From Syntrophales bacterium (GTDB taxonomy: Bacteria > Desulfobacterota > Syntrophia > Syntrophales > JADFWA01): a stretch of DNA of 37,813 bases. Position 1 is the first letter of the stretch. The number at the start of each line of letters is the position of its first letter. The stretch lies in contig JAUSPI010000098.1 of the NCBI GenBank assembly GCA_030655775.1, forward strand, positions 1 to 37,813, read 5' to 3'. The notes under the pieces were generated by a model. The model was not told the DNA's origin, made no database searches, and saw only the letters and a program-made list of their open reading frames with translations. Both the position numbers and the translations under genes were made by a program. This document shows, piece after piece, positions 24,481 to 31,465 of the stretch.

Positions 24481-25382
24481 TTAGTAAATTTCACCGATAA
24501 GATCCTGCGTCACTTTTTTAGAGGCGGTGACGATACTGTCGACGACCTTTGTTCCCCTTTTTACAGTCACCTTTTCCCAGAGAATGGATCGCCTTATCTC
24601 CACCCCCTGTTCAAGACACGCTTCCTCACCAATGATTGCCCAATCCCTGAGTTTGACGGAACTGTGAATCTGAGAACCAGACGCCAGTAAAAAAGATTCC
24701 CCCTCTAAAGCTTCTTTATTGGCAAGAATATATTTTCGACCGTACCGATATCCCGCCACTTGTGTCCCGCCGATATGTAGGCCCTGACCGGTTTGTCTTT
24801 TTGCATCAAATCTCTATAGCAATCGATAATGTCCGAAAAGGCGCCCTCGGGGATATAATCCAAAAGTTTTGGATCGATAATATGAATGCCGGTGAAGGCA
24901 AGCCTGCCGGGATGGTTATTAACAGTAATATCCAGGATGTTCATACGGTTGTCAATCTGAATCTGATTAAACGGCAGTTGGTCATGAAGGATCAGCGTCG
25001 CCAGGTTTCCGTTGCGCCTGTGGTCATCATAAGCCTTTGATAAATTGATATTTGTGAGGATATCCGAATTTATTACGACAAACGGCTCCGTATCCCAGAA
25101 ATCCGCTGTGTTTTTGATGCCGCCTCCCGTTCCCAGAATCTCCGGTTCAACCCGGACTTGAATGCGTGCCCCGAATGATCTGCCGTCACCCAGGTATCTT
25201 GCAATTTGCTGGTGGTGGTGATGTGCGTTCACCACCATTTCACTGACATGGAATCCCTTAAGATAGTTTATTACCCTGTCAATGACCGGTTTGTTCCCTA
25301 TCGGGACAAGAACCTTCGGCTTGTCAGCGCTCAGTGATTTCATCCGTGTTCCAAGACCGGCTGCAAGAATCATTGCTTTCAT
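24481..25382 (-). pseudogene. frameshifted sugar-nucleotide transferase
   Basis: The first 219 or so residues are a nucleotidyltransferase of the sugar-phosphate type: MKAMILAAGLGTRMKSLSADKPKVLVP holds the GxGTRM/KP motif, with VINSDIL and the end GHKWRDIGTVE. Reading then passes to another frame (RKYILANKEALEGESFLLASG...), which gives a left-handed beta-helix tail. The break is in the A-run GAAAATAT (tttt at 24733-24736 on the plus strand); one missing base restores a 300-residue protein. Such enzymes (MurU, GmhB-neighbour or mannose-1-phosphate guanylyltransferase types) charge a sugar phosphate with a nucleotide. It may be a sequencing or assembly error rather than a true null. AAAGGG precedes the ATG. 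Confidence 0.8.
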
Positions 25383-25740: not shown

Positions 25741-25773
25741 CTTGTCAAACAATGAGTGAAATTTCTTTTGCCC

Positions 25774-25802
25774 TTGACTCAGAACTATTTTTCTTCTATA
25801 CT
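25774..25802 (+). promoter_or_regulatory. promoter of the S component-DUF1893-DUF362 unit
   Basis: TTGACT (25774-25779), 17-bp spacer, TATACT (25797-25802). The leader of about 40 bases contains CTTAC-CAAACA-GTAAG (25805-25820), a small inverted repeat that could be a hairpin or operator. No riboswitch was recognised. Confidence 0.65.
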
Positions 25803-25848
25803 TCCTTACCAAACAGTAAGATAAAACAAGTATTTAGAGAAGATAAAA

Positions 25849-26430
25849 ATGGGCAGAACACGCACTATTCATTTAGCACACAGAGAAGCAGCTTTCCCAT
25901 GCGTGCTGAAATTTGCCAACTTTCGCCTTTATGCCTTTGTTACCTTATTTGTAGCAATGGACGTGGCGATACCATGGCTTTGCCACTGTATTCACCCTTT
26001 AGCCGGCCCTACATTTCTTCCCATGTTTTTCTTCATTTTGTTGGCCGGACTTTTATTTGGCTGGCGTGCGGGCATTATGGTCGGAATTCTCACACCGCTT
26101 GTAAGTTACGGTTTCTCAGGAATGCCCTTCCTGGAACGGCTTCCCACAATCGTCATCGAGGCTTCATTCTACGGACTGTCAGCGGGTCTTTTCCGTGAGC
26201 GGTTCAAACTGAACGTTTTTTGGTCACTCCTTGGAGCAATGGTTGTTGGGAGATTAGCTGCTGCATTAGCCTTATTAATAATGCATTGGTCAGGTGACTC
26301 AAATTCCCCTGTTTTAGTATGGCAGGCAATAAAGCAGGGGTGGCCCGGAATTGCAATACAGCTGGTCTTTCTACCCACAATCTCCATAGTTTTAGAGAAA
26401 ATCTCTTCAACATCCGGACATCATGAATGA
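25849..26430 (+). CDS. ECF-type transporter S component (predicted)
   Basis: A 193-residue integral membrane protein with about five or six hydrophobic segments. The pattern GPTFLPMFFFILLAGLLFGWRAGIMVGILTPLVSYGFSGMP is typical of substrate-binding S components of energy-coupling-factor vitamin importers. No EcfA ATPase or EcfT gene is nearby, so it would use a shared module encoded elsewhere. The substrate is unknown. The ribosome site is weak (AGAGAAGA) and the start could be later, near MDVAIPW, where the membrane part begins. It overlaps the DUF1893 gene by 8 bases, so the two are coupled. Confidence 0.7.
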   Translation: MGRTRTIHLAHREAAFPCVLKFANFRLYAFVTLFVAMDVAIPWLCHCIHPLAGPTFLPMFFFILLAGLLFGWRAGIMVGILTPLVSYGFSGMPFLERLPTIVIEASFYGLSAGLFRERFKLNVFWSLLGAMVVGRLAAALALLIMHWSGDSNSPVLVWQAIKQGWPGIAIQLVFLPTISIVLEKISSTSGHHE

Positions 26431-26815
26431 TCTCTTTAAGTCATTTCTAAAAAGCGACGATACACTCTGGGTCTTAAAAGCTAACATCTCGATCTTTCAA
26501 TCCAAAAAAAAGGGGATTGCATCACTTCTGGACTACATTGAACAGTTTAGCCCATGTACCGATGAAGTCACCGTTTTTGACCGTGTGGTCGGCAACGCGG
26601 CTGCGTTACTTCTGGAAAGAATACGCTGCAGAAAGATATATTCCCGGATTGGAAGCAGGTACGCTTTAGAAACATTGAACCAACATGGCATTCCCAGTTA
26701 TTTCCTAAAAGTGGTGCCCTATATTTTTAATAGAAAAAGGGATGGAATGTGCCCGTTTGAACAATTGTCTATCGGGAAATCCCCCGACGAATTTTATAAA
26801 TCGATTATCAGCTGA
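26423..26815 (+). CDS. DUF1893 (TM1506-like) protein
   Basis: A 130-residue protein matching the DUF1893 pattern: an N-terminal segment WVLKANISIFQSKKKGIASLLDYI, the core VFDRVVGNAAALLLE, the YALETLNQHGIP segment and the conserved end RDGMCPFEQLS with its Cys. The archetype TM1506 is described as having a deaminase-like fold, but no reaction is established. Its start lies within the end of the S-component gene, and a DUF362 ferredoxin gene follows after 27 bases. This suggests a role with the imported compound or a redox step; that is inference. Confidence 0.75.
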   Translation: MNDLFKSFLKSDDTLWVLKANISIFQSKKKGIASLLDYIEQFSPCTDEVTVFDRVVGNAAALLLERIRCRKIYSRIGSRYALETLNQHGIPSYFLKVVPYIFNRKRDGMCPFEQLSIGKSPDEFYKSIIS

Positions 26816-26842
26816 GATTTATGCAAAAAAACGGATGATAAA

Positions 26843-27862
26843 ATGGATGAACCCATCTTCCAAAAAACCGATGGTAACATCGAAAATTATATTGTCTCTC
26901 TCCGTTCACTCCTTTATAACCTGGAGTCCCCTTTCCGAAAAGGTGACTCGGTTGCCATCAAGCTTCACTGGGGAGAAAAGGGGAATACAAGTTATCTGCA
27001 TCCACGGTACGCCAGAGAAATCGTAGAGTGGCTAAAGGAGCATGAAACAATTCCTCTCATTTTCGATACTACCGCCCTCTATTCAGGCGGCCGTCGCACG
27101 GGAAAAGACTCACTTAAAACAGCAGCAGAACATGGCTTTACAGAGGAGTACCTTGGCTGCCCGGTCGCGATAGGGGATGGAATGGACGGCAAAAATGTAA
27201 TCGACATAGATGCACGGTTCAAGCATTTTGAAACTGTACAGGTTGCCGAGCTTTTGGAAAAGGTGGACGGGTTTTTTATTTTTTCCCATTTTAAGGGACA
27301 TATGGTTGCCGGATTCGGGGGTGCCATAAAAAATATCTCCATGGGATTCGCCTCACGGGCACAGAAACAGAGGATGCACTCTGATGCGCATCCCGTTTTG
27401 AACAGGGAAGAGTGTACCAGATGCGGCATTTGCGTCGATTCCTGCCCCACCGGTGCTGCAACAATCTCCGGGGATGAATATCCTGAATATGACTTAGAGA
27501 AATGCATCGGATGCGCTCAGTGCATTGCACTATGCCCTCAACTCGCGCTAAAAATTTTCTGGAATACTGACGAAAAGGTCTTTCAGGAAAAACTGGTTGA
27601 AACAGCCGCGGCAGTGTGGAAGCGTATCAAGGACAGGACCCTGCTGGTAAATTCCCTCCTTACAATAACTGCCGACTGCGATTGCATGCCCGGGCATAAT
27701 CCTAAAATAGCCGAAGACCTGGGTTTCCTGGGAGGGTACCATCCTGTACTCTTAGATAGAAAATCGATGGAACGTATAGAAGAAGAACCCTTCAACAAGA
27801 CATATCCTCATGTTCCATGGAAAAGACAGTTTGAGTATGCTGAAGAGATCGGTTTTATTTGA
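26843..27862 (+). CDS. DUF362 domain protein with two [4Fe-4S] ferredoxin sites
   Basis: A 339-residue cytoplasmic protein. The DUF362 part (about 1-185) includes VAIKLHWGEKGNTSYLHP and FFIFSHFKGHMVAGFGGAIKN. Two ferredoxin clusters follow: CTRCGICVDSCPTGA and CIGCAQCIALCPQLA, each CxxCxxCxxxCP. The C-terminal part carries further Cys residues (ITADCDCMPGHNP). DUF362 proteins are common in anaerobes and their function is unknown. It is last in the three-gene unit and ends 13 bases from the convergent purF. Confidence 0.85.
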   Translation: MDEPIFQKTDGNIENYIVSLRSLLYNLESPFRKGDSVAIKLHWGEKGNTSYLHPRYAREIVEWLKEHETIPLIFDTTALYSGGRRTGKDSLKTAAEHGFTEEYLGCPVAIGDGMDGKNVIDIDARFKHFETVQVAELLEKVDGFFIFSHFKGHMVAGFGGAIKNISMGFASRAQKQRMHSDAHPVLNREECTRCGICVDSCPTGAATISGDEYPEYDLEKCIGCAQCIALCPQLALKIFWNTDEKVFQEKLVETAAAVWKRIKDRTLLVNSLLTITADCDCMPGHNPKIAEDLGFLGGYHPVLLDRKSMERIEEEPFNKTYPHVPWKRQFEYAEEIGFI

Positions 27863-27875
27863 GGGGATACTATCT

Positions 27876-29333
27876 CTATGTATTTTTAACAGAGAACACG
27901 CCGTCAAAACACTTCAGACACAAACCTTCTCTCGGAATCAAAAGGGCCGAAACAAAGGCATCAATCGTGTTATACTTAACGGAGTCTGCATCTATCTGTT
28001 TTGCTATCCATGCCTCCATCTTCTTCAGATCGTCCATAGAGGTAATATGTCCCGTTTTCATATAATGCCGGGCGACCAACTCTTCATAAGAGCGGGTCGA
28101 TATACCGTAATCGCATGGGTACATCAGAGGGGGACAGGCAATACGTACATGCACCTCTTTGGCGCCTGCCTCCTTTAAATCTCTCACCTTGTTCAAAATT
28201 TGAGTTCCCCGAACGATTGAGTCATCACACAGAACAATCTTTTTCCCTTTAACTGCATAGGGAAGCACAGACAGCTTTCGCTCTGCCATCTTTTCGCGGG
28301 CAAGCTGTGTTGCCTGCATATAACTGCGATCGGCATAGCGATGATAGAGAAACACTTCCTGGTAATTAATCTTAGAGCGTTTGTGATATCCGAGTGCGTG
28401 GCCTATCCCCGACATTGGAACGGGTGCAACAAGATCAGCCGTCAAATCCCCTTCGTCCATATCTCTTTGGGCAAGGGTTTCACCCAAATTGCTTCGAGCC
28501 TCCTGTACATAAACACCATCTATAATGGAATCAATGCTCGCCGTATATGCCCACTCGAAAGCGCAATGTGCACTGCGTGGCGAATCCACCTGCCCCACGG
28601 TTTGAAACCCTTTGTGGTCTATAAGGACGATCTCACCGGGACGTACATCCCGAAAAACCTCCATGCCCAGATTCTTGATGGCACGGGATTCGGAGCTTAC
28701 CGCATACCGTTCAGAATCCATACCCAGCATAAGCGGTCGAACTCCATAAATATCACGAGCCGCATAGATTCCGTCTTTGGTTAAAACCACCAGTGAGTAG
28801 GAACCTTTGATCTTCTCGGCAAGTGCACTAATGCCGCTGACAATATCGGGTTTTTCTATGATAATCTTGGAAATTATCTCTATGTCGTAACCTTTGTAAA
28901 AAGAGATTCCCTGACTCATTATTTCTTTCATCAGGTCATCAGCGTTAATAACTTTACCGCTGAAAGCGACGGCAATCCCCCCGAGTCTGGTCTGCCACTT
29001 CATCGGTTGTCTTTCCCAGAGGCTTACATGCCCTATACCCCAATTGCCATTTAAACTTTTTAATTCTTCATCGGTAAAGGTATTAATAACCTTGCCGTGG
29101 TGAGTGACGTGATTTATTTCCTGACCGAAAGATGCTTCATCTTCATATTCCTGTTCCTTCAGTTTAAGGAAATCAATCTGGGTTGCCTTCTTGACATCCG
29201 GATCAAAAGTAGAAATTCCGCAATATTCCTGTCCACGATGTTGAAGGAAATCAATCCCCCGGTAAATATCGTAAACACACTCTCTTTTTGAATATAAACC
29301 GAAAACACCACAGTTTTCTTGTACTAACTTCAT
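27876..29333 (-). CDS. purF: amidophosphoribosyltransferase PurF
   Basis: A 485-residue enzyme of the first step of purine synthesis, moving glutamine amide nitrogen onto PRPP. A short propeptide MKLVQEN is followed by the nucleophile Cys8 (CGVFGLYS), then LQHRGQEYCGIST. The PRPP site is IVLCDDSIVRGTQI. The structural Fe-S ligands of the Bacillus-type enzyme are conserved: CAFEW, the Cys in PPLMYPCDYGI, and CLKC near the end. The sequence is rather diverged but complete. Its leader holds a terminator-like hairpin (29371-29409). It is convergent with the DUF362 gene. Confidence 0.9.
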   Translation of the reverse strand: MKLVQENCGVFGLYSKRECVYDIYRGIDFLQHRGQEYCGISTFDPDVKKATQIDFLKLKEQEYEDEASFGQEINHVTHHGKVINTFTDEELKSLNGNWGIGHVSLWERQPMKWQTRLGGIAVAFSGKVINADDLMKEIMSQGISFYKGYDIEIISKIIIEKPDIVSGISALAEKIKGSYSLVVLTKDGIYAARDIYGVRPLMLGMDSERYAVSSESRAIKNLGMEVFRDVRPGEIVLIDHKGFQTVGQVDSPRSAHCAFEWAYTASIDSIIDGVYVQEARSNLGETLAQRDMDEGDLTADLVAPVPMSGIGHALGYHKRSKINYQEVFLYHRYADRSYMQATQLAREKMAERKLSVLPYAVKGKKIVLCDDSIVRGTQILNKVRDLKEAGAKEVHVRIACPPLMYPCDYGISTRSYEELVARHYMKTGHITSMDDLKKMEAWIAKQIDADSVKYNTIDAFVSALLIPREGLCLKCFDGVFSVKNT

Positions 29334-29863: not shown

Positions 29864-31465
29864 ATGATTAAAGGGCTTATACTCTTTGCGACCGGATTGG
29901 TCTTCTTTCTGTTCGGGATGTTTAAGCTGAGTGCCGAGATAAAGAGACTCTTCAATAACATCCGGATTCGTGAATATTTCAGATATTCCATCGAAAAACC
30001 GATCTACGGCGTAATTACCGGTACTATTTCAACCATTCTTTTTCAAAGCAGTTCGGCAACCTCTGCCCTTGTCGTAGGGATGGTCAGTGCCGGCCTGATC
30101 AGCTTCTACCATTCCCTGGGCATAATACTGGGTGCCGGTATCGGAACGACTTTTACCATACAACTTGTAGTCTGGAAGTTTACCGACATTTCTCCTGTTT
30201 TTATAGTTTTCAGTGGTATCCTGTGGCTTTTAGGAAAAGGATATTGGAAAACAATCGGTGAAGCACTGTTCTATTTTGGTCTGATATTCTTTGGTTTGAG
30301 TGTAGCAGCCGAGGCAACCGCGCCCTTGAAGAACAATCCTGCCTTTGTTACTTTCTTTCAGGAAACAAAAAACCCACTGCTCGGCGTTGCCGCCGGCCTG
30401 TTCTTTACGGCAGTCGTCCAGGCTTCGGCCATACCGATCAGCATTCTTGTTATCCTCGCCCAACAGGGATTGATAACCATTGACAATTCCCTCCCTATCA
30501 TTTTCGGGGCAAATATCGGAACAGCAGTCACGGCCATCCTGGCAGGTCTCGTCGCCAATACAGGCGGAAAGAGGAGCGCACTTTCTCATTTACTTTTCAA
30601 ATTCTTTGGAACAGTAATTTGTCTTTGCATTTTGCCTGTTTTTATAAAGGTTCTGAACGGCCTTTCTTCAAACGTTGCCCAACAGATTGCCCTTGGTCAT
30701 GTTATGTTTAATTTTCTGATAGTCATCATCTTTATATTTCTCCTCAAGCCGTTTGCACGGTTGATTGAAAAAATCCTGCCCGGCAAGGAAGAAGTTTTGC
30801 CGATCTGGCCTATATTCCTCGATGAAAAATGTTTGTCTAAACTCGAAGATGCTCTGGAATGCGTCAAAAAAGAGCTGCAGAGACAGATCATCCTTGCTCA
30901 AAAAATGTTTTCCGAGAGTTTACTTCTGATATCTGACTTCAGTTCCGGGGAAAAGAGAAATATCCTCTATGTCGAATTGATAGTAGATAATCTATACAGA
31001 GAAATATCCGGATATCTGTGCAAAATTCCCAGCGGTCATTTTTCGCCGGAGCAGTCAAACAGATTCTTTTCTTATGCAGGAATGATTGGCGATATTGAGA
31101 GGATCGGCGATCACTGTGTAAATCTGGTTGAACTATCTGAAAACAAATATAAGACAAAAATACCGTTTTCTCAACCGGCAGAGAACGAACTGCAGGAAAT
31201 TCAAGAGTTGACGTTCAAAAATCTCGAAGAAGCCGTCTCGCTTATTGAGAGGAGGGACGAAGAAAAGATACGATCAATTTTCGAGCGAGAGGAAAAAATT
31301 GATATTAAAGTGAAAGAAGCCACTGAAAGACATCTGGAGAGATTTCACATGGGAATCTGCCAGGCTGCAGTCGGTCCTATTTTTCTCGAAATACTATTAA
31401 ATCTCGAAAGGATATCGGATCACTGTGAAAATATTGCCGAGTACAGCGAGAGTTTGAAAGAATAA
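29864..31465 (+). CDS. Na/Pi cotransporter family protein with PhoU-like domain
   Basis: A 533-residue membrane protein. The N-terminal 310 residues have about eight to ten helices and the duplicated sodium/phosphate motif, QSSSATSA at 61-68 and the variant VVQASAIPIS at about 185-194, with GANIGTAVTAI after it. Residues about 330-533 form a PhoU-like helical domain (DALECVKKELQRQI, IERIGDHCVNLVELSE, LERISDHCENIAEYS). Such proteins move phosphate with sodium; the PhoU part probably regulates. AGGA lies 8 bases before the ATG. It stands alone. Confidence 0.88.
   Translation: MIKGLILFATGLVFFLFGMFKLSAEIKRLFNNIRIREYFRYSIEKPIYGVITGTISTILFQSSSATSALVVGMVSAGLISFYHSLGIILGAGIGTTFTIQLVVWKFTDISPVFIVFSGILWLLGKGYWKTIGEALFYFGLIFFGLSVAAEATAPLKNNPAFVTFFQETKNPLLGVAAGLFFTAVVQASAIPISILVILAQQGLITIDNSLPIIFGANIGTAVTAILAGLVANTGGKRSALSHLLFKFFGTVICLCILPVFIKVLNGLSSNVAQQIALGHVMFNFLIVIIFIFLLKPFARLIEKILPGKEEVLPIWPIFLDEKCLSKLEDALECVKKELQRQIILAQKMFSESLLLISDFSSGEKRNILYVELIVDNLYREISGYLCKIPSGHFSPEQSNRFFSYAGMIGDIERIGDHCVNLVELSENKYKTKIPFSQPAENELQEIQELTFKNLEEAVSLIERRDEEKIRSIFEREEKIDIKVKEATERHLERFHMGICQAAVGPIFLEILLNLERISDHCENIAEYSESLKE

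Follow-up and report, generated by a model that had tools for sequence, protein, structure and literature searches.

The three-gene unit of the window (the whole stretch of 37,813 nucleotides of the Syntrophales contig JAUSPI010000098.1 that was analysed) encoded an S component of ECF transporters, a DUF1893 (TM1506) protein, and a DUF362 Fe-S protein (Table 1), and it was interpreted, at a probability of about 40%, as a unit for ECF-independent uptake and intracellular capture of a small molecule, often with a reductive step. The basis of this interpretation comprised the gene content, the pairing of S and DUF1893 genes across phyla, the co-evolution of the two proteins, the lack of EcfT, the lack of conserved zinc ligands in DUF1893, and the recurrence of an Fe-S gene at the third place.

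The S and DUF1893 ORFs overlapped by 8 nt, with the start codon of DUF1893 located inside the S gene, and a gap of 27 nt separated DUF1893 from the DUF362 gene. The upstream neighbor (NTP transferase gene, minus strand, 5' end at 25382) pointed away from the unit and the downstream one (PurF-like gene, 27876-29333, minus strand) converged on it, and thus the unit was composed of exactly three genes; the tight unit described in the initial annotation was borne out, its ORFs being found in place, co-directional, and isolated. A 148-aa ORF (25752-26198) overlapping the S gene was dismissed as spurious. The promoter proposed together with the unit fell just outside the interval 25849-27862, and a pattern scan for such promoters was not above chance (4 found versus 6.2 expected), but its elements were conserved in relatives: (i) a TTGAC-containing hexamer, a 17-nt spacer, and TATACT, TATAAT, or TACACT were found upstream of the S gene in genomes G003, G054, and G039, and (ii) the same elements preceded an S remnant in genome G034, with diverged flanking sequence around the conserved hexamers in all four. 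Since the hexamers and the 17-nt spacer recurred in otherwise diverged sequence of distant relatives, the promoter was probably real.

Table 1. Coordinates of the three genes and the putative promoter in the window
Feature	Positions	Strand	Length	Basis
Sigma-70-like promoter TTGACT-17-TATACT	25774-25802	+		Pattern scan; conservation in relatives
S component	25849-26430	+	193 aa	ORF and Pfam PF12822
DUF1893 / TM1506	26423-26815	+	130 aa	ORF and Pfam
DUF362 protein with two 4Fe-4S clusters	26843-27862	+	339 aa	ORF and Pfam

Three observations were additionally made around the unit: (i) a sugar-nucleotidyltransferase at 24481-25382 (minus strand) was split into two overlapping frames (225 aa plus a 92-aa repeat-like C-terminal part), which suggested a frameshift, either in the genome itself or introduced by the assembly; (ii) the PurF-like amidophosphoribosyltransferase scored 301 bits against the curated purF cut-off of 350, and it was perhaps a divergent paralogue; and (iii) a Na/Pi cotransporter fused to PhoU domains (29864-31465, plus strand) lay near the unit but outside it.

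The S protein matched Pfam ECF_trnsprt (PF12822; 5.2e-10; 40 bits against a cut-off of 30.7), being the only PF12822 protein above cut-off in its own genome, and it additionally gave a sub-threshold match to Pfam 5TM-5TMR_LYT. Its model (pLDDT 75) displayed the S-component fold: the top 20 rows in the comparison with solved structures were all S components (Z 7.9-13.3), the others reached at most Z 6.9, and Foldseek agreed by probability, with weak E-values. The identity of the S component was thereby confirmed by family and by fold; its role in a normal vitamin ECF importer was not supported by the search for EcfT (PF02361, EcfT/CbiQ), which gave no match in its own genome (G000, 99% complete) and none in all five Syntrophales genomes with S type S1 (own genome plus four others; S types are described below), while 10 of 14 controls and 44 of 60 relatives were positive in the same search. 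EcfT was absent from 21 of the 39 distinct pair-bearing genomes (duplicates merged; S1, 10/15; S2 Syntrophales, 5/17; archaeal metagenome-assembled genomes [MAGs], 6/7) and some EcfT was present in the other 18, with the reservation that MAG incompleteness could mask EcfT in single genomes. Among the 29 EcfT loci inspected, 27 adjoined CbiM or BioY and resembled modules dedicated to cobalt/nickel or to biotin; of the remaining two, one was located at a contig start and the other carried a stop. The EcfA search in the own genome recovered many ABC ATPases, the best of them scoring 168 bits against the TIGR04520 cut-off of 315. Because EcfT was lacking from the own genome and from 21 of 39 pair-bearing genomes, and 27 of 29 EcfT loci lay beside CbiM or BioY, the window S protein was most likely a solitary S component, not part of a normal ECF importer.

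A DUF1893 profile scan of named genomes recovered 66 loci, all of which were then searched with profiles of S, DUF1893, and DUF362; these targeted profiles were used instead of Blast clustering of neighboring ORFs, which was swamped by antisense shadow ORFs. The S gene was located directly upstream of DUF1893 on the same strand in eight Chloroflexota loci, in Syntrophales loci, and in seven archaeal MAG loci, and two S types were distinguished: (i) S1, found in the window, in related Syntrophales, and in the eight Chloroflexota loci, and (ii) S2, found in other Syntrophales and in the seven archaeal MAG loci. The pair thus spanned two bacterial phyla (Syntrophales; Dehalococcoidia of Chloroflexota) and small archaea, and the conserved pairing that the initial annotation had left to a neighborhood survey was found well beyond its own lineage. 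In the reverse search with S alone, run on 60 relatives and on 148 genomes from the class to which locus L066 belongs, all 12 strong S matches (own genome counted) adjoined DUF1893, including those in two Dehalococcoidia-class genomes drawn irrespective of DUF1893; DUF1893 itself was present in 19 of 60 relatives and in 7 of 297 genomes of the phylum. DUF1893 was rated a new partner, S never being seen without it in these searches. About half of the DUF1893 loci had no adjacent S gene, and thus DUF1893 would also work elsewhere.

The distances of S and DUF1893 were also compared (mirror-tree with Mantel test), and they were correlated at r 0.92 across 37 loci and at r 0.77 and 0.80 within S1 and S2, respectively, with 0 of 5000 permutations as high; at the level of sequence the two proteins co-evolve, which is evidence of co-inheritance, not of direct contact. 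In the DUF1893 tree (midpoint-rooted, so that no direction of transfer was claimed), the window clade was placed among Chloroflexota sequences (about 42% identity) and apart from other Syntrophales (26%), a position suggesting that the S-DUF1893 pair moved together between phyla. Close relatives of DUF1893 were found in none of the viral contigs searched, and a Borrelia-type DUF1893 query gave no match in phages and one in plasmids, this being a Chloroflexota record.

Several loci were noted individually: (i) L054 (genome G523), a 2.3-Mb 'Nanoarchaeota' MAG carrying the pair plus DUF362, may be contaminated or misbinned, given its size; (ii) L053, L056, and L058, from a Syntrophales subgroup, encoded DUF1893 with a cysteine-rich tail (CRGQCGYTPWCRECMKSRG-like) and had no adjacent S gene; and (iii) L067, L068, L069, and L078, from Dehalococcoidia and likewise without S, had DUF1893 between a PfkB-like sugar kinase gene and an aldo/keto reductase-ferredoxin gene, a hint of a different context for DUF1893.

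The DUF1893 protein matched Pfam TM1506/DUF1893 (6.9e-26), and its model (pLDDT 96) gave Z 20.0 to TM1506 (1vk9) and Z about 8-9 to other proteins of the deaminase fold, among which AICAR transformylase and FdhD scored as high as true deaminases; a TM1506-like protein of deaminase-like fold, as originally annotated, was hence upheld. The alignment of 25 diverse members contained the invariant residues D53, G57, A59-A61, S78, L85, I101, C110, and E113. The fixed motifs of a zinc deaminase must supply a catalytic Glu as well as two Cys and a further residue that is either His or Cys; in the 25-member alignment, no His was invariant, only one Cys was, and the H/C-A-E and PCxxC zinc/catalytic motifs were absent. 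The family therefore cannot share the zinc-deaminase site, and a zinc-type form of the annotated deamination step was rejected as unlikely on residue conservation. The only other solved DUF1893 member besides 1vk9 was Borrelia 9e9a, described as uncharacterised, and no papers using the name DUF1893 were found in the literature searched.

The third protein matched Pfam DUF362 (4.1e-39) and carried two Fer4 motifs at residues 184-234 (CTRCGICVDSCP and CIGCAQCIALCP), in agreement with its annotation as a two-cluster Fe-S protein; its own genome had only two DUF362 genes, and no biochemical function of DUF362 was found in the literature searched. Other Syntrophales loci and one archaeal MAG also had a DUF362 gene of this subfamily (at least 441 bits) next to the pair, placed downstream, divergently, or convergently. 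In 11 Dehalococcoidia loci, DUF1893 was directly followed by an aldo/keto reductase gene encoding a C-terminal cysteine-rich 4Fe-4S tail, recognised in L066 as a 4Fe-4S dicluster domain. Two unrelated Fe-S oxidoreductase-like families thus filled the third slot, which argued for a redox step; the redox step suggested earlier was retained to the extent that this slot was often occupied by an Fe-S oxidoreductase, but it did not hold for the many pairs without any Fe-S gene (e.g., L006, L073, L076, L084, and most archaeal loci). A decayed unit was observed in G034 (L115:1477-2720), where an intact DUF362 gene directly followed the promoter and what was left of S (39 residues, interrupted by an in-frame TGA), and DUF1893 was not found in the G034 genome.

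As for the substrate, the vitamin riboswitches that the initial annotation had proposed to look for upstream in relatives did not appear: the window gave no Rfam match at all, and no riboswitch turned up next to the pair at 23 related loci or, with a relaxed threshold, just upstream. No biosynthetic gene neighbored the unit. An nhaA-I riboswitch match at L048:7317-7365 (minus strand) lay about 2.6 kb from DUF1893 and was not linked to an S gene.

From these observations we infer transport, trapping, and an order of steps: (i) the solitary S component would bind the compound and give it passage through the membrane with no ATP-driven ECF module involved, as in the case of BtuM and some BioY; (ii) DUF1893 would bind or convert the compound inside the cell via its invariant Asp, Ser, Cys, and Glu, and this capture would pull flux inward; and (iii) where present, a ferredoxin-type oxidoreductase would add a reductive step, namely DUF362-ferredoxin in Syntrophales and aldo/keto reductase-ferredoxin in Dehalococcoidia. 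BtuM is confined almost entirely to organisms that lack an ECF module, and it chemically modifies its ligand (PMC6072759); solitary BioY was another precedent for an S component without an ECF module, and how solitary S components move their substrates was described as unclear (PMC11109136). A stronger version, in which S and DUF1893 perform group-translocation-like uptake in bacteria and archaea, with DUF1893 covalently modifying or ADP-ribosylating the incoming compound and a lineage-specific Fe-S reductase attached, was considered decidedly improbable.

S-fold proteins can be sensors instead of transporters, the fold being common to histidine kinase receptor domains (PMC11109136), and the S protein might accordingly be a membrane receptor that passes its ligand state to DUF1893; the latter would then signal or modify, perhaps through ADP-ribosylation, and the Fe-S protein would be a redox-responsive output. 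This was unlikely: the sub-threshold 5TM-5TMR_LYT match, the lack of an ECF module, and the invariant Asp of DUF1893 were consistent with it, the last in view of a review (PMC8946771, citing Iyer 2011) that reports auto-ADP-ribosylation of the prototype TM1506 on an Asp and serves as a lead only, but Pfam preferred ECF_trnsprt over the receptor domain, the closest solved folds were transporter S components, the unit had no regulator, kinase, or output gene, and the Fe-S partners were oxidoreductase-like. An ordinary ECF importer, with an EcfT/EcfA module that was shared, escaped assembly, or had diverged too far to be recognised and with DUF1893 and the Fe-S gene as downstream salvage enzymes, would suit a good S family member and the 18 of 39 pair genomes with some EcfT; it was made improbable by the 99% completeness of the EcfT-free own genome, by the lack of EcfT in five of five S1-type Syntrophales when most relatives had it, by the location of existing EcfT genes beside CbiM or BioY, and by the lack of EcfT in 6 of 7 pair-bearing archaeal MAGs.

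The other two alternatives concerned the soluble partners. An import step with subsequent zinc-dependent, hydrolytic deamination by DUF1893, a zinc-type version of the deamination step of the initial annotation, drew on the deaminase-like fold (Z about 8 in comparison with dCMP and cytosine deaminases) and on the Zn contained in 1vk9 crystals (PMC2954221), but the zinc ligands and motifs were missing from the 25-member alignment and the equally scoring structural neighbors included non-deaminases (AICAR transformylase and FdhD), leaving this reading very improbable. It was also improbable that DUF362 was a lineage-specific passenger and the real unit S-DUF1893, with an independent third gene: the pairs without any Fe-S gene, as well as the DUF362 gene kept in G034 beside an S remnant without DUF1893, pointed that way, but the same DUF362 subfamily recurred beside the Syntrophales pair in three arrangements even though the own genome had only two DUF362 genes, and an unrelated Fe-S oxidoreductase filled the slot in Dehalococcoidia. 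Under the preferred reading of ECF-independent uptake with intracellular capture, the unexplained DUF1893 family would gain a specific, testable partner, the very few S components seemingly working without an ECF module would receive a cross-phylum addition, and a dedicated soluble partner encoded by an overlapping gene would offer a direct handle on the question of transport by solitary S components.

The comparison was also applied to known systems. BtuM and solitary BioY shared with the window S protein the S-component fold, a host without EcfT, and the pattern of ECF-less organisms, but the window S protein matched neither by family models and had one or two soluble partners in its operon. 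Group I/II ECF transporters (RibU, ThiT, PanT, and FolT) shared the PF12822 family and the fold (Z about 10-13); in contrast, the own genome had no EcfT and no EcfA over cut-off, and no shared module was found in relatives. The Thermotoga maritima protein TM1506 (1vk9) belonged to the same Pfam family as the window DUF1893 protein (Z 20.0; 28% identity) and had the same conserved Asp and Cys-Pro-x-Glu motif. The AICAR transformylase domain, FdhD, and cytidine deaminases had the same fold as well (Z 8-9), but identity was 3-14% and DUF1893 had no conserved zinc ligands. The window DUF362 protein shared its DUF362 domain with Pfam clan CL0471, to which the lactate racemase LarA family also belongs, and differed in having two 4Fe-4S clusters inserted.
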